32,318 nucleotides of DNA from Victivallales bacterium (GTDB lineage Bacteria; Verrucomicrobiota; Lentisphaeria; Oligosphaerales; Oligosphaeraceae): NCBI GenBank assembly GCA_017525435.1, contig JAFXSU010000227.1:1-32318 (forward strand), in the 5' to 3' direction. The notes below the pieces were generated by a model that saw only the letters and a program-made list of their open reading frames with translations, was not told the origin of the DNA and searched no databases. Shown in pieces: positions 5,671 to 32,143 of this stretch (within the stretch, counting starts at the first letter, position 1; every line of letters starts with the position of its first letter). A program made the position numbers and the translations under genes.

Positions 5671-6900
5671 TCACATGGACAGCTGCTTCAGGCGGTCTTC
5701 GATGCCTTTTTGAATTTTGCCATATACATCAGCTGGATGATGTTTGGATAGCCTGGCCATGAGTTTTGAGGTTGCTGATTTGATTCGTTTTACCAATTTT
5801 GACAGTTCCAGTTCAATCACCTTCTCCGTAATTCCGGCCCTTAGCCCCATGCGGACGAATTTTCCATGTGTTATCCATCGGAAGTGGTATTCTGTATCTA
5901 TCTTCATCGCCAGTTTTTCCACAAGATTGGGATAGACGGTCGTCGAAAGCAAATCGTAGGCGGGGGCAAGCTCGGGACGTCCGCCACGGTAGATGACAGA
6001 GAAGTTTTTTGCATGTGCGTCGCCGTTTCCAATTAGGAAGCAGAAAATAATCTGGTCAAGAAATGCGATGGTGTCGGCCGCTGAGAGTTCCATTCGTCGT
6101 ATCAGGTCAAAGCATCTGACAAGTCCTGGACCTCCCTCGGATTCATATTTGAACTTTGGGTCGACTCCAAGCAACTGGCAAAAATCTTCCTGGTGGAGGC
6201 GTCGCCAGAAACCGTCAACCTTCTCTCGGTCATAACGCTCCACCACATAATATTCAACGCCGTTAATTTTCAGGATGTCACATTCGGCAACACGCAGACC
6301 GCAGGCCTTGGCAAGTTTCATGCAATAGCACTCGTTGTACACGCTTTCGGGAAAACGTTCGATGCCAGGCTTGATGATGTGAGTGGAGGGTGTGCCATTC
6401 AACGGGAGGAGAATCCGTCCTTTATCCACGCAGGCGACAAGTTTGTCCTGTGCCCCTGCGCCTGATATATGGAAACCTTCCGCGCCGATGTTGAGTGGGC
6501 GTTCCGCAAGATGGGTCAAGACATCGTCCGCTTCTTCTTCGGTCAAAATTCGGTAAAGCGGATGCCCATATTCCGCCGGTGTCTTGTCAGGCGCAAACAG
6601 TGCGACCGCACCCGCGCAATCCTCACCGATTGCCTGAAGCAGACCGAAGATATTCTCCGGGGATAGACCGAGAATTTCCGCAATTCTTACGCGCACGCCC
6701 TCGTCGGGTAGGAGATTAGAGAAGAAAGGAACAATCGCTTCCTCAGAGAAAACCTCGTTGCGAACGGGCAAGGAGAAGGAAAGTGGAACAGGATTGGGCA
6801 AATTGCTGTATTTCTGGTCATAGCGGAATGAAAGGCGTCCTTCGTCCGAGGACAATGTGCCGACTTTTCGCCCATGCAGATAGACATTCAGCGTAGGCAT
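5671..6900 (-). CDS. hipA: HipA-family serine/threonine kinase toxin
   Basis: Toxin of a type II toxin-antitoxin pair. Known HipA kinases phosphorylate aminoacyl-tRNA synthetases (GltX or TrpS) and cause growth arrest; the target here is unknown. At 409 residues it is in the normal range. The N-terminal HipA domain covers about residues 1-105. Next come the glycine-rich loop GAGAQDKL (147-154), with Ser146 at the place of the autophosphorylated serine, the catalytic loop GNGDAHAKNFS (291-301, Asp294), and the metal-binding segment APAYDLLS with Asp316. All key residues are present, so it should be active. The start overlaps the hipB stop by one base (TGATG). Codon use is less GC-rich than in the neighbouring genes, which fits acquisition by transfer. 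Confidence 0.92.
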   Translation of the reverse strand: MPTLNVYLHGRKVGTLSSDEGRLSFRYDQKYSNLPNPVPLSFSLPVRNEVFSEEAIVPFFSNLLPDEGVRVRIAEILGLSPENIFGLLQAIGEDCAGAVALFAPDKTPAEYGHPLYRILTEEEADDVLTHLAERPLNIGAEGFHISGAGAQDKLVACVDKGRILLPLNGTPSTHIIKPGIERFPESVYNECYCMKLAKACGLRVAECDILKINGVEYYVVERYDREKVDGFWRRLHQEDFCQLLGVDPKFKYESEGGPGLVRCFDLIRRMELSAADTIAFLDQIIFCFLIGNGDAHAKNFSVIYRGGRPELAPAYDLLSTTVYPNLVEKLAMKIDTEYHFRWITHGKFVRMGLRAGITEKVIELELSKLVKRIKSATSKLMARLSKHHPADVYGKIQKGIEDRLKQLSM

Positions 6901-22765: not shown

Positions 22766-22854
22766 TTTAGGCAAGTTAACGATATAATTTCCTAGGTTTT
22801 TCCATGATTTTCGGATGGTTCCCCTCAAATGTTTTTACCGGACAATCGTGCCTC

Positions 22855-22986
22855 TGCCTTGATTTTTTGCGAGTTGGGCCAGTTGTTTGCCTAGACTTTT
22901 TGCATGTTTGTCCCATTATTTGCCTTGATTTTTTACGAGTTTTGTCCATTGTCTGCCTTGACTTTTTGCAGATTGGGCACTTGAGG
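22855..22986. repeat. Four tandem 33-bp repeats upstream of the toxin-antitoxin module
   Basis: Units start at 22855, 22888, 22921 and 22954, an exact 33-bp period. Each begins TGCCT and continues with TGAYTTTTT-like sequence and a GTTTG/GGGCA-type tail. Units differ at several positions. There are no spacers between them. Some units contain a small dyad CTTGA...CRAG. Two more units at 24090-24155 follow the toxin gene in the same orientation. Confidence 0.85.
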
Positions 22987-23066
22987 GCGTTTTTAACAAT
23001 CATTTTCATGCAATTGATTGCAAATGCAGTTTTATGAAGTAAATTATCATGCAGAGGAGGTTTGTA

Positions 23067-23621
23067 ATGGCAAATACATTGGTTCAATTTCGGATAGACG
23101 AGAAGCAGCGCAAGGAAGCGGAGGGCATTTGCGAGCAGCTGGGCTTTGATTTGCCCAGCTATCTGCGCATGAGCGTCACCCGGCTGGTACGGGAGAAGGG
23201 CGTGCCGTTCAACCTGTGCGTGGCGGAGGACAAAAAGGATGATTCTGCCCTGTGGAATGCAATTTCCGAATTGCAAGCCTCTGCCAAGGCGAATGGCTTG
23301 TCCGAGATGTCTCTGAAGGAAAGCGACGCGGAGATTGCGGCTGCCAGGGCGGAGCGTGCGGCCGATGAGGACTCGCCCCTTCTGGAGGCTATGCGTGAAT
23401 GCAGTCGCATTGCCGAGGCAAATGGCATTGCGGATATGACTCTCGAGGAAATCGACGCGGAGATAGCGGCGGTACGTAAGGAGATGCGTGCGGAAGAGGC
23501 CGCAAAAAATATGGCGGTGGCGGGACAGATACTTCGTCGTGTCAAGACAAATGGCACTGCGGATATACCCCTGGTGGAACTCAACGCGGAAATTGCGGCG
23601 GGCAGAGCGGAGAAAAACTAA
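23067..23621 (+). CDS. RelB/DinJ-like antitoxin with three tandem tail repeats
   Basis: A 184-residue protein. The first ~50 residues (MANTLVQFRIDEKQRKEAEG, then LPSYLRMSVTRLV) are a ribbon-helix-helix DNA-binding domain of RelB/DinJ type, expected to dimerise and repress the operon. After it come three repeats of 43 residues, marked by ANGLSEMSLKESDAEIAA (75-92), ANGIADMTLEEIDAEIAA (118-135) and TNGTADIPLVELNAEIAA (161-178). In ordinary antitoxins of this type, about 80-100 residues long, one such segment forms the toxin-binding tail. The DNA shows the same 129-bp period. The start at 23067 follows GGAGG by six bases; the ATG at 23049 is upstream of that site. Two bases separate it from the PIN toxin gene. 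The role of the repeats is inference. Confidence 0.85.
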   Translation: MANTLVQFRIDEKQRKEAEGICEQLGFDLPSYLRMSVTRLVREKGVPFNLCVAEDKKDDSALWNAISELQASAKANGLSEMSLKESDAEIAAARAERAADEDSPLLEAMRECSRIAEANGIADMTLEEIDAEIAAVRKEMRAEEAAKNMAVAGQILRRVKTNGTADIPLVELNAEIAAGRAEKN

Positions 23622-23623
23622 CA

Positions 23624-24097
23624 ATGCCCCAATATTATGCAGTTTTAGATACAAATGTCTTGGTTTCGGCAATGCTGAAGGAGCATTCTGTACCGGGGAC
23701 TATCCTCAGGTTATGTGCAAAAGGGCTGCTGGTTCCTGTCTATGGAGAAAAAATGTTACAGGAATATAGCGAGGTCTTGGCACGTTCCAAATTCCATTTT
23801 CCGCAAAGCACCATTTCCAAGATAACAGCGGCAATCTTACAAAACGGTCTGAAAATCAAACATGTGTCTCAGTCCTGGTCACTCCCCGACGCCTCGGACG
23901 CAGTGTTCTTCGCGGTGGTGATGGAGCACCGCAAGACGGAGGAACAGTCGTACCTGGTCACCGGCAATCTCCGCCATTTTCCCATAAAACCATTTGTCGT
24001 CACGCCGCGCGAGATGCTGCTGATTGTCGCCAATGACCTCCTCCGCGAACACTGGCTGCGGCATTTTCTCCGGCGGATTGAACAGCGTTCGCCTTGA
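23624..24097 (+). CDS. PIN-domain toxin of a type II toxin-antitoxin system
   Basis: A 157-residue PIN-domain protein of the COG1569 type, a predicted metal-dependent RNase that cuts tRNA or other RNA until bound by the antitoxin. Acidic active-site residues: Asp9 in AVLDTNVLVS, Glu50 in YSEV, Asp89 and Asp92 in LPDASDAVF; TGNLRHFP near residue 115 is the usual end of the core. The 157 residues are somewhat longer than the core, with a basic C-terminal helix. The start is two bases after the antitoxin stop, so the genes are co-transcribed. The last codons and the stop overlap the first downstream 33-bp repeat unit (24090-24122). Confidence 0.88.
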   Translation: MPQYYAVLDTNVLVSAMLKEHSVPGTILRLCAKGLLVPVYGEKMLQEYSEVLARSKFHFPQSTISKITAAILQNGLKIKHVSQSWSLPDASDAVFFAVVMEHRKTEEQSYLVTGNLRHFPIKPFVVTPREMLLIVANDLLREHWLRHFLRRIEQRSP

Positions 24098-24155
24098 CTT
24101 TTTTCAAGTTTTGGCACTTGTTTGCCATTGACTTTTTACATCGCACTTGCATTCT
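24090..24155. repeat. Two tandem 33-bp repeats downstream of the toxin-antitoxin module
   Basis: Units start at 24090 and 24123, again 33 bp apart, in direct orientation relative to the four units at 22855-22986. The first unit supplies the toxin stop codon and includes a CTTGA...TCAAG dyad. The stretch 24156-24194 leads to the next gene and holds nothing else recognised. Confidence 0.8.
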
Positions 24156-24194: not shown

Positions 24195-27100
24195 ATGAAA
24201 CAGCTCATTTTAAGCTCTGTCTTGGCATTGTCCCTAGTTCTCTGCGCTGAAACCGTGGGGAAGCGCCCCTATGAATTGGACTGGGCGGGACGAACCCAGG
24301 ACACCTATCCCGACGCAGTGCTGGCGGACTTCGAGGCCGAAGGCTGGACCGGCGAGTGCGAGGGCGGAACCATCGCCGTCGAGCGCACGCGCGAGCAGCA
24401 GCTCTTCGGCGACTATGTGCTGAAGGCGACCTACTGCAACACCGCCGAGGGCAGCCAAATCTACTGCATCCGCCCGCCAGAACCGCTGGAGGCACCGGAC
24501 CACTTCGACACCATCACCCTCTGGGTTTATGGAAACCAGGAGGCGATTGACAAGGATCGCGCGACCATCGGACCGGTGTGCATCAATGTCCAGCTGCGCA
24601 ACGCCGAGGGCAATGCCGTTGACGTGGAATTGTACAACGTGGACTGGGACGAGTGGTTTCTGTGCCACAAGCGCCTCACGCCGGAGCAGCAGGAGCAGTT
24701 CTCGCGGCCTGGCACCACCGTCACGGCGATCGTCCTCAACCCCGCGAACAACCGCGAACCCCGCACGCTCTACTTCGACAGCCTCTCCCTCTACCAGGAG
24801 GAACTCCAGCCGCTGACCTTCGAGCCGCGCCCGAAGCGCGGAGTCGCGCTCTTCCCCGGACAGGACCCCGGCGCCAACATCGGCGAAAACACGTTGCCTT
24901 TCCCGAACCGCGAGGACACCATTCTTCCGGATAGCGCTGGAAATAATTCTCAAATAACTGTGTGTAAAGAAGATAATGTATTTATAATGAAATATTCTGC
25001 CGACGACGGCGAACTGCAACTTACCTACACGCCCCAGACGGGCACCTGGAGCGACTTCACCGCCTCCTGGAACGACTGCCCGCCCTTCCAGCCGCTTGCC
25101 GGCGGCGGCGCGAAGTTCGTGGGCACGGACGCGCAGGCGAAGCTGGTCTCCTGCGAGGAAGTCGATGGAAAGGTTCAGGCGGTCTGGGACTTCGGGCTGG
25201 CGGACGGCGCCTCCCATCGCGTCACTTATCAATTTGAACTGAAGGGCAAGACGCTGGTGCTGGACACCCTGAGTCCGAACGCGGACAGCCAGCTGGAGGC
25301 GGTCTCCTATGGCGAGGTTCGGGGCGTGGAATGCCTCGACCTGGTGCAGGTCCCCTACTATGACTACGGTCCACATAGCGGGCGTCCCGCCGTGGTACTG
25401 GCGCAGGCTGGCGATGAGACCTTCTTCCTGAGCGGCCACACGGACTGGTACCGCTCCAATGCGAGCCGTCCGCAGGGCGGCCAGTTCCCGTATGACGACA
25501 AGCTCCAGTTCAACGGTCAGGTGATGTATCTGCCGAAGACCGACGGGAAGCGCAACGATGTCTATGAGCGTTTCTTCGTGACCGTCTCGCCGGTCTTTGA
25601 GGAGCACCTGCCGAACATTCCGAACCCGAAGTCGCCGTGGCGGCACGTCACCGGCAGCGTGATCTGGCGGCCGTACGGCGCCTGGAAGCGCGCGGAGGAC
25701 AAGAAGTACTGGTACGAGGTATGGCGCCATGGCATGCGTAAGTGCCTGATCACCGGTCACGAGACTGGCTGGCGGGACGGCGAGGAGTCCTTCACCTTCC
25801 GCACGACGCCCGCGCCGGGGAAGGGCGGCGACGAGGGGGCGCGGGACTTTGCCCGCTACATGCAGGACACCCTCGGCTTCTTCTTCGGACCCTACAACAA
25901 CTTCTGCGACCTGGCTCCGGTCAACGGAAACTGGAGCACCGACATGGTGGCGCGCGCGGCAAACAACCAGCTTCAGCACGCCTGGCGGAGATGCTATGCG
26001 CCCAAGCCCCTGCGCGGAGTGGAGTTCTGCGAAAAATACACGCCCGTCATCCAGGAGAAGTTCCACTTTAGCACCGCCTACTGCGATGTCCACACCTCCG
26101 TGACCCCTTGGGACCGCTGCGACTACGATGCGCGCGTGCCCGGCGCGGGGACCTTCGCCCAGACCTACTACGCCTACGGCGAAATCATGCTCATCCAGAA
26201 GAAAAATTGGAACGGCCCGGTCTATTCCGAGGGACCCCACTTCTGCTTCTTCAGCGGACTCACCGACGGCAACTATGCGCAGGACCGCAGCTACCGCCTC
26301 TTCAGCCGCCCCTGGCTGGTGGACTTCGATCTGCGAAAGATCCACGAACAGGAGTGCAACTTCGGCATCGGCTCGATGACGATGTTCTACGGCGACGATA
26401 CCACTGGTGCGGACAACTTCTCCTGGCTGTATGACGGCAAAAGCGACGCGCACCTCAATCGCTACTTCACCGCCATCGCGGCCTTCGGGCACCCGGGCTT
26501 CCTGGTGATGGAGGGCGGGCTCCGCAATGCCATGCGCAGCTACTTCCTGTTCCAGCAAATCCAGACGCAGTACACCCAGGCCAGCGCCAAGAGCATCCGC
26601 TACTACCGACGGGAAAACAACGAGCCGAAGCTCTACACCGTCTCCGAAGCCATCCAAAACGGCGCATACAGGAACTCGCAGCTGGTCGTGGACTACGACA
26701 ACGGCACCCACGTGGTCGCCAACGGCTACAATGGCGCGGATAAGGATCAGGCGGGAGTCGGGATGTTTTATGAAGGACGCAGCATCGCCCTTGTCCCCAA
26801 TTCCTTCGTGGCCTGGACGGACGACGGGCGCTACCTCGCCACCAATGCAAACCGCAATGGCTTCCCCTGCGACTATGTCGAGTCGCCCGAATACATCTTC
26901 CTGGACGGGCATGACAAGGTCAACCAGACTATGCCCAAGGCCGATGGCTCCGGCTGCGTGGTCTGCCGCAGCGACGACGAAAACCACTGGGAGTTCCTCG
27001 GGCTGAACGGCGCTCAGGGCGGATTCGCCGTCGAGGGCGGCAACGCCCGCGCCTACGCCTACGACGGCACCGACCTGGGGCCTGCGATGGCCGTGCGCTG

Positions 27101-28133
27101 CCGCGGGATGCTCTATGTCCTGCCCGTGGAGGGTGCCTTCAGCTACAAGCTCGAGAAGAACGCCACGACTCTGGAGACCGCGCTTTCCAGCGACTCCTAC
27201 GAGGTCTTCTCCGGCGACACGGTGCTCGTCAACACGCCGAACGGCCCGGTGGAGCGCGTCATCAGCGGCGAGCCCGGACAGCGCGTGTGGGTGGAAATCG
27301 ACGGCCAGTACCTCTGCTTCGTGATCCGCGCGATGGTGGATTTTGTGCCGAAGGGCCTCTCAGAGACGGGAACAGAGTTTTGTGGTTCCATTCGGAATTG
27401 CGGTGGCACGCCGCTTGCCGTGCAGGTCAAGCCGAGCTTCTCCGAGGCGCAGACATTCGAGATCGACCCCTACTGGATGGTGGACTTCAAGGCGGAATTG
27501 CCCCAGGCGTCCACGGAGGGCGAGGAGAAGATCACCATCGACTTCGCGCACGGAGAACTCCGCCAGACCTGGGAGGGCACGCTGGTGCGCCAGATGACGC
27601 GCGAGGTGCTCTTCGACCGCTTCGCCGACCCCGGTCTCTTCTTCAAGGGCGCGGTGATCCTCAACCGCGAGACCAACCGGGATCCATTCAGCCTCGGCGC
27701 ACGCGTGGAAAGGCAGACGATGTCCTGCGGAGGCGTGAACCGTGACGGGATTTTCATGCATCCCGCCTGGCTGGAGGGCTTCGTGGGCGACGCCTTCGCG
27801 ACCTACAAGTTGTCACTGCCCGACGTGCCGGACCTCGTCTTCACCGGCTTCGTCGGCAAACGGGACGGCTCGTACCCGGGCGATGGCATGCGCTTCTTCG
27901 TCGGTGTCACGCCGGAGGGCTCCACGGAGGAGCAGACCATTGCGGAGGTGAGTGTCGCCAAGCACGAATGGAAGCCCGTCGAAGCCGACCTCTCGCAGTG
28001 GGCTGGCCAGAATGTCGCATTGCGGCTCATCATGGATGTCGGCGCCGACCAGGACTCCTCCGGCGACTGGGGCTGCTGGGGGGACCTCAAGATAACTCGG
28101 AAGGAGGCCTGCCTCAAGACCACGCTGAAGTAG
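24195..28133 (+). CDS. Large secreted protein, probably polysaccharide-active (tandem copy 1)
   Basis: 1312 residues; I do not recognise a named family. It has a signal peptide (MKQLILSSVLALSLVLCA, cleavage probably before ETVG). Residues about 25-200 look like a carbohydrate-binding jelly-roll (DFEAEGWTGE, then FDTITLWVYGN). A beta-rich region follows (about 250-470). The middle (about 480-800) resembles a catalytic barrel and contains STAYCDVHTS, YYAYGEIMLIQ and GPVYSEGPHFCFF; the Asp and Glu in these are candidate catalytic residues. The C-terminus (about 1190-1300) is another beta-sandwich (FVGVTPEG, ADLSQWAGQNVALRLI). A glycosidase is likely but unproven. Codons 24939-24998 are almost all A/T-ending. 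No Shine-Dalgarno. Followed by a paralog after 92 bp. Confidence 0.8.
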   Translation: MKQLILSSVLALSLVLCAETVGKRPYELDWAGRTQDTYPDAVLADFEAEGWTGECEGGTIAVERTREQQLFGDYVLKATYCNTAEGSQIYCIRPPEPLEAPDHFDTITLWVYGNQEAIDKDRATIGPVCINVQLRNAEGNAVDVELYNVDWDEWFLCHKRLTPEQQEQFSRPGTTVTAIVLNPANNREPRTLYFDSLSLYQEELQPLTFEPRPKRGVALFPGQDPGANIGENTLPFPNREDTILPDSAGNNSQITVCKEDNVFIMKYSADDGELQLTYTPQTGTWSDFTASWNDCPPFQPLAGGGAKFVGTDAQAKLVSCEEVDGKVQAVWDFGLADGASHRVTYQFELKGKTLVLDTLSPNADSQLEAVSYGEVRGVECLDLVQVPYYDYGPHSGRPAVVLAQAGDETFFLSGHTDWYRSNASRPQGGQFPYDDKLQFNGQVMYLPKTDGKRNDVYERFFVTVSPVFEEHLPNIPNPKSPWRHVTGSVIWRPYGAWKRAEDKKYWYEVWRHGMRKCLITGHETGWRDGEESFTFRTTPAPGKGGDEGARDFARYMQDTLGFFFGPYNNFCDLAPVNGNWSTDMVARAANNQLQHAWRRCYAPKPLRGVEFCEKYTPVIQEKFHFSTAYCDVHTSVTPWDRCDYDARVPGAGTFAQTYYAYGEIMLIQKKNWNGPVYSEGPHFCFFSGLTDGNYAQDRSYRLFSRPWLVDFDLRKIHEQECNFGIGSMTMFYGDDTTGADNFSWLYDGKSDAHLNRYFTAIAAFGHPGFLVMEGGLRNAMRSYFLFQQIQTQYTQASAKSIRYYRRENNEPKLYTVSEAIQNGAYRNSQLVVDYDNGTHVVANGYNGADKDQAGVGMFYEGRSIALVPNSFVAWTDDGRYLATNANRNGFPCDYVESPEYIFLDGHDKVNQTMPKADGSGCVVCRSDDENHWEFLGLNGAQGGFAVEGGNARAYAYDGTDLGPAMAVRCRGMLYVLPVEGAFSYKLEKNATTLETALSSDSYEVFSGDTVLVNTPNGPVERVISGEPGQRVWVEIDGQYLCFVIRAMVDFVPKGLSETGTEFCGSIRNCGGTPLAVQVKPSFSEAQTFEIDPYWMVDFKAELPQASTEGEEKITIDFAHGELRQTWEGTLVRQMTREVLFDRFADPGLFFKGAVILNRETNRDPFSLGARVERQTMSCGGVNRDGIFMHPAWLEGFVGDAFATYKLSLPDVPDLVFTGFVGKRDGSYPGDGMRFFVGVTPEGSTEEQTIAEVSVAKHEWKPVEADLSQWAGQNVALRLIMDVGADQDSSGDWGCWGDLKITRKEACLKTTLK

Positions 28134-28225: not shown

Positions 28226-31200
28226 ATGAAACACTTCACCTTCTTCTTCCCCCTGCTGGCTTCCGTCGTGCTCCTGGCCGAGACGGTTGGCGTTCGCCCC
28301 TACGAGATGGACTGGGCGGGTCGTACCACGGACACCTATCCAGACAAGGTACTGGAGGATTTCGAGTCCGAAGGCTGGACTGGCGAATGTTCCGGCGGCG
28401 ACATCGTCGTGGAGCGCTCGCGCGAGCGGCAGCTCTTTGGCGACTATGTGCTGAAAGCCACCTACAAAAACACCGCAGATGGCTCGCAGATCTATTATCT
28501 GCGACCGCCGGAGCCGCTGAAGGCACCGGACGAATTCGATACCGTTACCCTCTGGGGCCACGGAAACCAGGAGGCGCTCTACAAGGACCGCCGGACCATC
28601 GGCATTGTGGTGGTCCATGTCGAACTTCGCAACGCCGAAGGCAAGACCACCGAGGTCGAGATGGCCGGAGTCAACTGGAACGACTGGTTCCTGTGCCACA
28701 AGCGCCTCACGCCAGAGCAGCAGGAGGAGTTCTCCCGCCCGGGCACCACCGTCACGGCGATTGTCCTCAAGCCCGCGAACAACCGCGAACCGCGCACGCT
28801 CTACTTCGACAGCCTCACCCTTTACACCGAGGAGTTCAAGCCACTGACCTTCGAACCGCGTCCGAAGCGCGGCATCCCGCTCTTCCCCGGCCAGGACCCC
28901 GGCGCAAACACCGGCGAGGGCACGCTGCCGTTCCCGACGCGCGAAGACACGATTCTGCCGGACAGTGCTGGAAATAATGCACAAATAAGTGTATATAAAG
29001 AAGATAATGCATTTATAATGAAATATTCTTCCGACGATGGCGAACTGCAGATCGCCTACACGCCACAGACGGGCACCTGGAGCGACTTCACCGCCTCCTG
29101 GAACGGCTGCCCGCCTTTCCAGCCGCTCTTCGACGGCGGAGCGCGCTTTGGCGGAGGTCAGCGGCCTGCCGCACGGCTGCTCTCCTGCGACTTGGAGGAC
29201 GGCAAGGTGAAGGCGGTCTGGAGCTACACGCTGGCGGACGGGCTGGAGCATGAAGTCACCTACCAATTCTGTCTGAAGGGCAAGACGCTGGTGCTGGACA
29301 CCCTGAGTTCCAACGGGGACAACCGTCTGGAGGTGGTCTCCTATGGCGAGATCCGTGGCGTGAAATACAAGGACCTCGTGCAGATTCCCTACTACGACTA
29401 CGGCCCCGTTGCCGGCCGGCCGGCGGTTGCGCTGGTTCAGGCTGGCGATGAGACCTTCTTCCTGAGCGGCCACACGGACTGGTATCTCTCCAACGCAAGC
29501 CGTCCGCAGGGCGGCCAGTTCCCGTATGACAACAAGCTCCAGTTCAACGGGCAGGTGACCTACATCCCGAAGACCGACGGGAAGCGTAACGACGTCTATG
29601 AGCGCTTCTTCGTGACCGTCTCGCCGGTCTTCGAGGAGCACCTGCCGAACATCCCGAACCCGAAGTCGCCGTGGAAGCACATCACGGGGAGCATCGTCTG
29701 GCGGGCGCACGGAGCCAGCAACCGCGCGAAGGACAAGGAATGCTGGTACAACGTGTGGCGCCACGGCATGCGCAAGTGCCTCGTCACCGACCACGAGACC
29801 ATGTGGCGGGACGGCGAGGAGTCCTTCACCTTCCGTACTCGGACCGCGCCCGGCAAGGGCGGCGACGAGGGCGAGCGCGACTATGCGCGCTACATGCAGG
29901 ACACTCTCGGCTTCGTCTATGGTCCGTACAACAACTTCACCGACTTCGCCCCCGTCAATGAATACTGGGACACGGACATGGTGGCGCGCTCCATGAACAA
30001 CCAGCTCGCGCGTGCCTGGCGGCGCTGCTATGGCCCCAAGCCCCTGCGCGGCGTCGAGTTCTGCGAAAGGCTCACGCCCGTCATCCAGGAGAAGTTCCAT
30101 TTCAGCACCGCCTACTGCGACGTGCACACCTCCTCCCCGCCCTGGGACCGCTGCGATTTCGACTTCCGCGTGCCCGGCGCCGCCACTTTCGCCCAGACCT
30201 ACTACGCCTACGGCGAGATCATGCTCATCCAGAAGCACAACTGGAACGGCCCGGTCTATTCCGAGGGACCCCACTTCTGCTTCTTCAGCGGCCTCACCGA
30301 CGGCAACTACGCGCAGGACCGCACCTACCGCCTCTTCAGCCGCCCCTGGCTGGTGGATTTCGACCTGCGAAAGATCCACGAGCAGGAGTGCAACTTCGGC
30401 ATCGGAGCCATGACGATGTTCTACGGGGAGGGCACGCAGGGCGAAGATCAGTACGGCTGGCTGCACGACGGGCGCACCGACGAGCATCTCGACCGGTTCT
30501 TCGCTGCCATTGCGGCCTTCGGGCACCCGGGTTTCCTGGTGATGGAGGGGGGCATCCGCATCGCCATGCGAAGTTACTACCTCCTCCAGCAGATCGAGAC
30601 GCAGTACACCCAGGCCGGCGTCAAGGACATCTTCTATTGCACGCCGGACGGACGGCTCTGCAATACCTCCGAGGCAATCAAGAACGGCGCCTACAGGAAC
30701 TCGCAGCTGGTCATCGACTACGACAACGGCACCCATGTCGTCGCCAACGGCTCCGGCACCTTGCCGATGAACGTGACCCACGCCGGACGCGAGGTCGCAC
30801 TCCAGCCAAATTCCTTCATGGCATGGACGGATGACGGGCGCTACCTCGCCACCAACGCACAGCACAACGGATTCGTCTGCGACTACGTCGAGTCCCCCGA
30901 GTACATCTTCCTGGACGGGCGCGACAAGATGAACCACACGATGCCAAAGGCCGACGGCTCCGGCTGCGTGGTCTGCCGCAACGACGATGCGGAGCATTGG
31001 GAGTTCATCGGCGTGAACGGTGCACAGGGCGGATTCGCCGTCCAGGGCGGCAACGCTCGTGCCTACGCCCACGACGGCACCGACCTGGGGCCTGCCAAGG
31101 CCGTGCGCTGCCGCGGGATGCTCTATGTCCTCCCCGTGGAGGGCGCCTTCAGCTACAAGCTTGAGAAGAACGCCACGACTCCGGAGACCAAGCTTTCCAG

Positions 31201-32143
31201 CGATTCCTACGAGATCTTCTCCGGCGAAACCGTGACTATCCGCACGCCCAAGGGCATGGTCGAGCGCGTCGTTTCCGGCGAACCCGGCCAGCGCGTCTGG
31301 GTGGAGATTGACGGGCAGTACCTCTGCTTCGTGATCCGCCGGCTCGTTGAGTTCACGCAGGTGGGGCTTTCCCCCAACGAGAGTGAGTTGCGCGGAGTCA
31401 TTCGCAACTGTGGCGGCACGCCCGTTGCCCTGCAGGTCAAGCCGAGCTTCTCGAAACCCTTCGCCATCGAGCTTCCGCCATACGGGAGCCAGTCCTTCGC
31501 CGTGCGGCTGCCTGTGGCCACCGCCGAAGGTGAGGAGAAGATCTCCGTGGAGCTCTCGCGTGGGGAACTCTGCCAGACCTGGAAGGGCACGCTGGTGCGA
31601 AAGATGACCACGGAGATGATCTTCGATGGCTTCGCAAAGGCGAGCAACTTCTCCAAGGGCGCCGTCATTCGGGCCAAGACAACCGACGCGGATCCCTTCG
31701 GCCTGGGGGCGCGTGTGGAGGTCCAGACGATGTCCTGCGGGAATGTCTCCCGCAAGGGCGTCTTCACCCACCCGCCCTATCGGGACGGCTGTGCGGGGGA
31801 CACCTTTGCTTCCTATCAGCTGGAATTGCCCAAGGTGCGGGACATCGTGCTGACCGGCTTCGTCGGCAAGAAGGACGGCTCGCATCCAGGCGACGGCATC
31901 ATCTTCCTGGTCGGCGTCACGCCAGAGGGCTATGATTTCGAGTCGATTGTGGCGGAGAAGCATGTCACCAGAAACGAGTGGGTCCCCATCGAAGCCGACC
32001 TCTCGCAGTGGGCCGGGAAGAAGATCCGTCTCCGATTGATCATGCCGGTGGGATCGAAGCTGAACACTGCCGGCGACTGGGGCTGCTGGGGGGACCTCAA
32101 GATCACCCGCAAGGAACCCCGCCTCAAGACCACGCTGAAGTAG
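28226..32143 (+). CDS. Large secreted protein, probably polysaccharide-active (tandem copy 2)
   Basis: 1305 residues, collinear with the preceding gene over its full length. It has a signal peptide (MKHFTFFFPLLASVVLLA, cleavage before ETVG). The same domain order is seen, including STAYCDVHTS, GPVYSEGPHFCFF and the C-terminal ADLSQWAGKKIRLRLI. Similarity is uneven: some stretches (for example about 29440-29680 against 25405-25650) are nearly identical even at silent sites, while the C-terminal third differs much more. The A/T-ending codon run is kept at 28970-29029. The two genes probably act on related parts of the same glycan. The identical start of the downstream repeat region suggests the duplicated unit includes it. 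Family not recognised. Confidence 0.8.
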   Translation: MKHFTFFFPLLASVVLLAETVGVRPYEMDWAGRTTDTYPDKVLEDFESEGWTGECSGGDIVVERSRERQLFGDYVLKATYKNTADGSQIYYLRPPEPLKAPDEFDTVTLWGHGNQEALYKDRRTIGIVVVHVELRNAEGKTTEVEMAGVNWNDWFLCHKRLTPEQQEEFSRPGTTVTAIVLKPANNREPRTLYFDSLTLYTEEFKPLTFEPRPKRGIPLFPGQDPGANTGEGTLPFPTREDTILPDSAGNNAQISVYKEDNAFIMKYSSDDGELQIAYTPQTGTWSDFTASWNGCPPFQPLFDGGARFGGGQRPAARLLSCDLEDGKVKAVWSYTLADGLEHEVTYQFCLKGKTLVLDTLSSNGDNRLEVVSYGEIRGVKYKDLVQIPYYDYGPVAGRPAVALVQAGDETFFLSGHTDWYLSNASRPQGGQFPYDNKLQFNGQVTYIPKTDGKRNDVYERFFVTVSPVFEEHLPNIPNPKSPWKHITGSIVWRAHGASNRAKDKECWYNVWRHGMRKCLVTDHETMWRDGEESFTFRTRTAPGKGGDEGERDYARYMQDTLGFVYGPYNNFTDFAPVNEYWDTDMVARSMNNQLARAWRRCYGPKPLRGVEFCERLTPVIQEKFHFSTAYCDVHTSSPPWDRCDFDFRVPGAATFAQTYYAYGEIMLIQKHNWNGPVYSEGPHFCFFSGLTDGNYAQDRTYRLFSRPWLVDFDLRKIHEQECNFGIGAMTMFYGEGTQGEDQYGWLHDGRTDEHLDRFFAAIAAFGHPGFLVMEGGIRIAMRSYYLLQQIETQYTQAGVKDIFYCTPDGRLCNTSEAIKNGAYRNSQLVIDYDNGTHVVANGSGTLPMNVTHAGREVALQPNSFMAWTDDGRYLATNAQHNGFVCDYVESPEYIFLDGRDKMNHTMPKADGSGCVVCRNDDAEHWEFIGVNGAQGGFAVQGGNARAYAHDGTDLGPAKAVRCRGMLYVLPVEGAFSYKLEKNATTPETKLSSDSYEIFSGETVTIRTPKGMVERVVSGEPGQRVWVEIDGQYLCFVIRRLVEFTQVGLSPNESELRGVIRNCGGTPVALQVKPSFSKPFAIELPPYGSQSFAVRLPVATAEGEEKISVELSRGELCQTWKGTLVRKMTTEMIFDGFAKASNFSKGAVIRAKTTDADPFGLGARVEVQTMSCGNVSRKGVFTHPPYRDGCAGDTFASYQLELPKVRDIVLTGFVGKKDGSHPGDGIIFLVGVTPEGYDFESIVAEKHVTRNEWVPIEADLSQWAGKKIRLRLIMPVGSKLNTAGDWGCWGDLKITRKEPRLKTTLK

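Follow-up and report, generated by a model that had tools for sequence, protein, structure and literature searches.

The locus and its surroundings

The window analysed here, a stretch of 32,318 nucleotides from a gut-type Victivallales bacterium, carries downstream of guaA an antitoxin gene with three tandem tails, directly followed by the gene of a PIN_3 toxin. The features to which the following sections refer are listed below, all of them on the forward strand.

22853 to 22969, forward strand: 33-bp repeat in 3.6 tandem copies, on the upstream side of the toxin–antitoxin pair
23009 to 23053, forward strand: candidate promoter/operator with palindrome TGCAATTGATTGCA (23009–23022) and TGAAGTAAATTATCATGCA (23035–23053)
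23067 to 23621, forward strand: antitoxin gene, 184 aa, an RHH domain followed by three tandem tails
23067 to 23222, forward strand: RHH DNA-binding/dimerisation domain, residues 1–52 (Pfam RelB, TIGR02384)
23241 to 23369, forward strand: tail unit 1, residues 59–101, with Arg94, at the position of the sole tail of single-tail relatives
23370 to 23498, forward strand: tail unit 2, residues 102–144, with Arg137, the best profile match
23499 to 23618, forward strand: tail unit 3, residues 145–184, with Arg180, the most diverged
23624 to 24097, forward strand: PIN_3 toxin, 157 aa (PF13470, E 8.2e-15), starting 2 nt past the antitoxin stop
24090 to 24139, forward strand: the same 33-bp repeat, downstream of the pair

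An AGGAGG ribosome site lies about 7 nt 5′ of the antitoxin ATG at 23067; a further in-frame ATG, at 23049, is located ahead of this site. Residues 4–72 of the antitoxin match Pfam RelB (PF04221, E 2.4e-8, 34.2 versus a cut-off of 22.4), and the protein passes the RelB/DinJ family profile TIGR02384 (RelB_DinJ) with 48.1 bits at a cut-off of 45.65, the match being confined to the RHH part and the linker. The toxin partner that goes with this family has a RelE/YafQ fold, whereas the adjoining toxin here is a PIN_3 protein. The first-pass annotation had likened the tail to that of RelB/DinJ-type antitoxins; this type applies to the RHH part only, and the tail is a PIN-associated module rather than a RelE/YafQ-binding tail. 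AF2 yields a low-confidence model of the antitoxin (pLDDT 67, pTM 0.25), whose top PDB fold matches are DinJ chains (E 0.045). DinJ-YafQ and RelBE share the RHH domain family with the antitoxin described here, but their toxins are of the RelE fold, and no relationship is detectable between the DinJ tail and the tails discussed below.

Membership of the toxin in the PIN_3 family is indicated by two profiles (PF13470, 56.1 against a cut-off of 27; TIGR00305, 32.4 bits against 29.15), and its acidic active-site residues D9, E47, D89, and D92 are invariant in the toxin alignment (A4). A fold search with a weak model of the toxin yielded PIN/VapC chains among the matches, none of them with E < 0.001. 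To judge from the sequence, the gene layout is that of VapBC-type pairs, with an antitoxin directly upstream (2-nt gap) that features a DNA-binding N-terminus and a tail with a putative inhibitory Arg; the usual state of VapBC-type antitoxins is one tail per chain, however, and there are three here.

The TGCAATTGATTGCA/TGAAGTAAATTATCATGCA region upstream of the antitoxin appears, in a comparison by eye, to resemble the TGCA-TATATTATCATGCA found upstream of single-tail relatives. The 33-bp repeats (TGCCTTGACTTTTTTCGAGTTTTG...) bracket the toxin–antitoxin pair and occur within their own genome at this locus only. Further downstream, two tandem and closely similar proteins of 1305–1312 aa are encoded at 24195–28133 and 28226–32143 on the forward strand; they have signal-like starts and no Pfam match. 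Another toxin–antitoxin component, a HipA-type toxin gene (TIGR03071), resides at 5674–6900 of the window on the reverse strand.

The tail unit and its distribution

The first-pass annotation had described three copies of a tail at Gly77, Gly120, and Gly163 at equal spacing, in an antitoxin of about twice the normal length. Both statements are borne out: Asn-Gly pairs occupy residues 76–77, 119–120, and 162–163, exactly 43 residues apart, and the 184 aa of the protein compare with 96–97 aa in single-tail relatives. Self-alignment at an offset of 43 scores 156 (BLOSUM62), whereas 1000 shuffles of residues 53 to the end reach 61 at most. The DNA of the gene is periodic at 129 nt, with 73-nt copies at 23282, 23411, and 23540, and a degenerate two-tail DNA pattern finds 2 matches in the window and 0 in 100 shuffles. 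The core ANGxxxMxLxExxAEIAA initially proposed is present, but unit 3 opens with TNG, and a better form of the motif ends in an invariant Arg: N-G-x4-[MI]-x-[LP]-x-E-x2-A-[EV]-I-x-A-x-R. Across 11 aligned tail units, N, G, A, I, A, and R are invariant. Since units 1 and 2 are identical at 22/43 positions, as compared with 13/40 for units 1 and 3 and 14/40 for units 2 and 3, the third copy is the most diverged, in agreement with the first reading.

For each 43-residue unit a helix-loop(NG)-helix arrangement is predicted by the low-confidence AF2 model, which is nearly all helical and contains a continuous helix at 126–161. Such a shape would suit extra units that act as spacers, coiled coils, or protease-sensing segments without toxin contact. 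We regard this explanation as highly improbable: in 43 other frames, mostly beside PIN genes and on two folds, the same sequence is present once, as the C-terminal tail, and the NG...AEIAxR core would be needless in a spacer. Compared with the tail families of Pfam and NCBIfam, the tail gives no match above cut-off and only a weak one to the VapB15 C-terminus (E 0.074); its profile has no meaningful match among PDB sequences.

A search for tandem repeats in antitoxins next to PIN toxins, which had been suggested at the outset, was carried out with the tail profile (A2) in 388 genomes of the phylum, 198 genomes of the class, and 10 viral-contig loci, with duplicates merged. This census yielded 45 distinct tail-bearing frames, 43 of which have one tail while the remaining 2, the window antitoxin and its orthologue, have three. 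A PIN gene lies directly downstream in 35/45. The carriers belong to two unrelated folds, RHH and Phd/YefM antitoxins (PF02604 in the case of L047), and Phd/YefM-type antitoxins with the tail are found next to PIN_3 toxins at L047, L050, L051, L054, L062, L065, and other loci. The occurrence on both folds argues that the module is tied to the PIN toxin, whichever DNA-binding fold it is attached to. In single-tail RHH/PIN_3 pairs (L009, L010–L012, and the viral-contig loci L079–L087), tail, toxin family, and gene order are as in the window; the RHH domain has 31–33/51 residues in common with those of L009 and L010, and the toxin is 44% identical to the L009 toxin. These pairs differ in having one tail on an antitoxin of 96–97 aa and a toxin of 138–139 aa rather than 157. 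Aside from antitoxins, the tail DNGLSDMSLEDINAEIAATR (1501–1608 in L026) is fused in frame to the C-terminal end of a glycoside hydrolase of family 20 (L026/L045, G079:C86), which has no adjoining PIN gene.

Over 84,980 species genomes, the orthologue is the sole match of the two-tail DNA pattern, a pattern of limited sensitivity (first Asn encoded by AAT, spacing of 38–48 residues) in that its half-pattern is matched by fewer than half of the tails found here in single copy; the profile census is free of this limit. In viral contigs the two-tail pattern has no match. The full-length antitoxin matches plasmids and phages in its RHH part only, and a first scan of genome contigs with the full-length protein returned no relative. 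The open-access papers searched contain no precedent for an antitoxin whose toxin-binding tail is duplicated or present in several copies.

The orthologue and the mosaic history of the slot

All three tails are present in a species of the same genus (L007/L037, genome G353), where the same gene pair lies downstream of guaA; this orthologue evidently corresponds to JAFZWH010000054.1 of Victivallales bacterium RGIG8156 from water-buffalo rumen. Among the species sampled, it is the only other one with the three-tail arrangement. The antitoxins are 63% and the toxins 62% identical. With a guaA dS of 0.42 between the window genome and G353, the triplication is older than the split of the two species, and an assembly artefact is rejected, the three units being present at the corresponding position in the independent MAG of a second species. 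The N-G...A-x-I-x-A-x-R core is kept in 6/6 units of the two proteins. A gene similar to those of the 1305–1312-aa proteins also follows the G353 locus.

Unit 2 is identical to its G353 counterpart at 37/41 positions and is under purifying selection (pS 0.28 versus pN 0.05, Fisher p 0.0012), as are units 2 and 3 together (p 0.0015), while unit 3 alone is indistinguishable from relaxed (p 0.17); since two orthologues are known, each of these values rests on one species pair. In G353, unit 3 reads MPLEE instead of IPLVE but has lost AEIAA, with AVISA in its place. Divergence is distributed unevenly along the locus. Units 2 and 3 have a dS of about 0.3, near the guaA level, whereas the RHH domain, unit 1, and the 5′ half of the toxin gene are saturated, and position 23292, at the NG codons in unit 1, marks the beginning of the shared block of high-identity DNA. 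The saturation of the RHH end and the toxin front suggests that each, separately, was replaced by exchange or diverged, with the tail array left in place.

The slot beside guaA varies within the genus and is a site of gene turnover. The 33-bp repeats recur at the orthologous slot of two genomes of the genus (G353:C134:4403–4491 and G392:C72:15641–15696) and may be marks of a site of gene exchange. In G392, a different gene sits between guaA and these repeats (L094:3705–4142, reverse strand), encoding a protein of 145 aa for which neither Pfam nor NCBIfam gives a match; in G393, the slot beside guaA has no such toxin–antitoxin module.

The rival explanation that we take most seriously builds on this turnover. 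It holds that the array is a recombination relic at an exchange hotspot, where incoming RHH-plus-tail antitoxins would have been joined to, or duplicated in, the resident gene, with a single unit doing the work. The pronounced mosaic, the start of the high-identity block within unit 1, and the differing content of the slot in G392 and G393 all fit such a history. It is also fitted by G353, where the gene of the three-tail antitoxin is immediately preceded by an additional, tail-less RHH gene of the RelB/DinJ type (L037:5574–5867, reverse strand). A relic would not be expected, however, to have kept exactly three in-frame units with an invariant core and Arg in both species despite divergence at the guaA level, nor to have kept the core of unit 1 though its surroundings were replaced. 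We consider a relic possible but on the doubtful side. The working unit would then be unit 1, which is in the canonical place, or unit 2, which is the most constrained, an assignment we hold to be just as doubtful; the others would be near-neutral, as the relaxed appearance of unit 3 suggests and the clear constraint on unit 2 contradicts for that unit.

Toxin partners and stoichiometry

A type II antitoxin chain normally carries a single toxin-binding tail, and this is the number of sites assumed in models of conditional cooperativity. In Shigella flexneri VapBC, Arg64 of the tail contacts the catalytic Asp/Glu of the PIN toxin, the equivalent residue in FitAB of Neisseria gonorrhoeae being Arg68 (PMC3384007). 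In both systems, a DNA-binding antitoxin inhibits its PIN toxin through a C-terminal tail (PMC3384007), as is predicted here; these systems differ in having one tail per antitoxin and form 2:2 or 4:4 complexes. By analogy, the tail Arg described here would act like the inhibitory Arg of VapB-type antitoxins. The designation of the repeat as a tail of the toxin-binding type, put forward in the first-pass annotation, is supported by its C-terminal place on two unrelated antitoxin folds beside PIN_3 toxins and by its VapB/FitAB-like Arg.

Three conserved PIN-type tails beside a single PIN gene are most economically explained by an antitoxin chain that binds at least two copies of the toxin, or that holds on to a toxin dimer with two of its units. 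Our preferred reading, to which we give nearly an even chance, is that the locus is a type II operon in which the tripled PIN-binding tail lets the antitoxin bind two or more molecules of one and the same toxin. The RelB/DinJ-type RHH dimer would repress its own promoter by binding the palindromic region (candidate 23009–23053). Each unit would dock on a PIN_3 toxin and direct its conserved Arg (94, 137, or 180) into the acidic active site, such that three units per chain, or six per dimer, might accommodate up to three toxins per chain; alternatively, neighbouring units could clamp both protomers of a toxin dimer. Free toxin would then be expected to appear only at a higher toxin:antitoxin ratio. 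Several points count against multivalency: unit 3 lacks significant purifying selection and has lost AEI in the orthologue, the selection test draws on one species pair, the antitoxin model is weak, and gene turnover at the locus can create fused relics.

It had also been proposed that the divergence of the copies fits different partners, and the units might indeed hold different toxins, encoded in cis or at other loci. The units do differ among themselves, and in a genome that is 86% complete a toxin may be missing. Yet both further PIN_3 toxins of this genome adjoin unrelated antitoxins of their own, for which reason they were rejected as orphan partners, and the IPLVE change of unit 3 is absent from the orthologue; we therefore consider different partners highly improbable. 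A further tail-bearing antitoxin was not found elsewhere in the host genome (86% complete), and, with the other PIN_3 toxins partnered, multivalency towards the same toxin is the simplest use of the array.

If the repeat is a tail of the toxin-binding type, three copies could change the toxin:antitoxin ratio. One three-tail antitoxin may hold several toxins or clamp toxin dimers with avidity, such that the number of tails would set the ratio at which toxin is released and the operon derepressed, constituting an evolvable stoichiometry dial; we put this somewhat below an even chance. With three copies of a defined tail, this natural antitoxin lends itself to a clean test of the way in which the number of sites sets this ratio. 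In VapBC52 of Mycobacterium tuberculosis, one antitoxin chain holds two PIN toxins (1:2; PMC13273310), but VapB52 is a large (43 kDa) multidomain antitoxin that uses two different domains and not tandem short tails. That PIN_3 toxins are accompanied by RHH as well as Phd/YefM antitoxins bearing the same tail clearly illustrates how a neutralisation motif has moved from one DNA-binding fold to another, and such movement of 'linear neutralisation' modules has been proposed previously (PMC10440598). As regards autoregulation in G353, the tail-less RHH protein encoded next to the three-tail antitoxin is a possible second repressor subunit.
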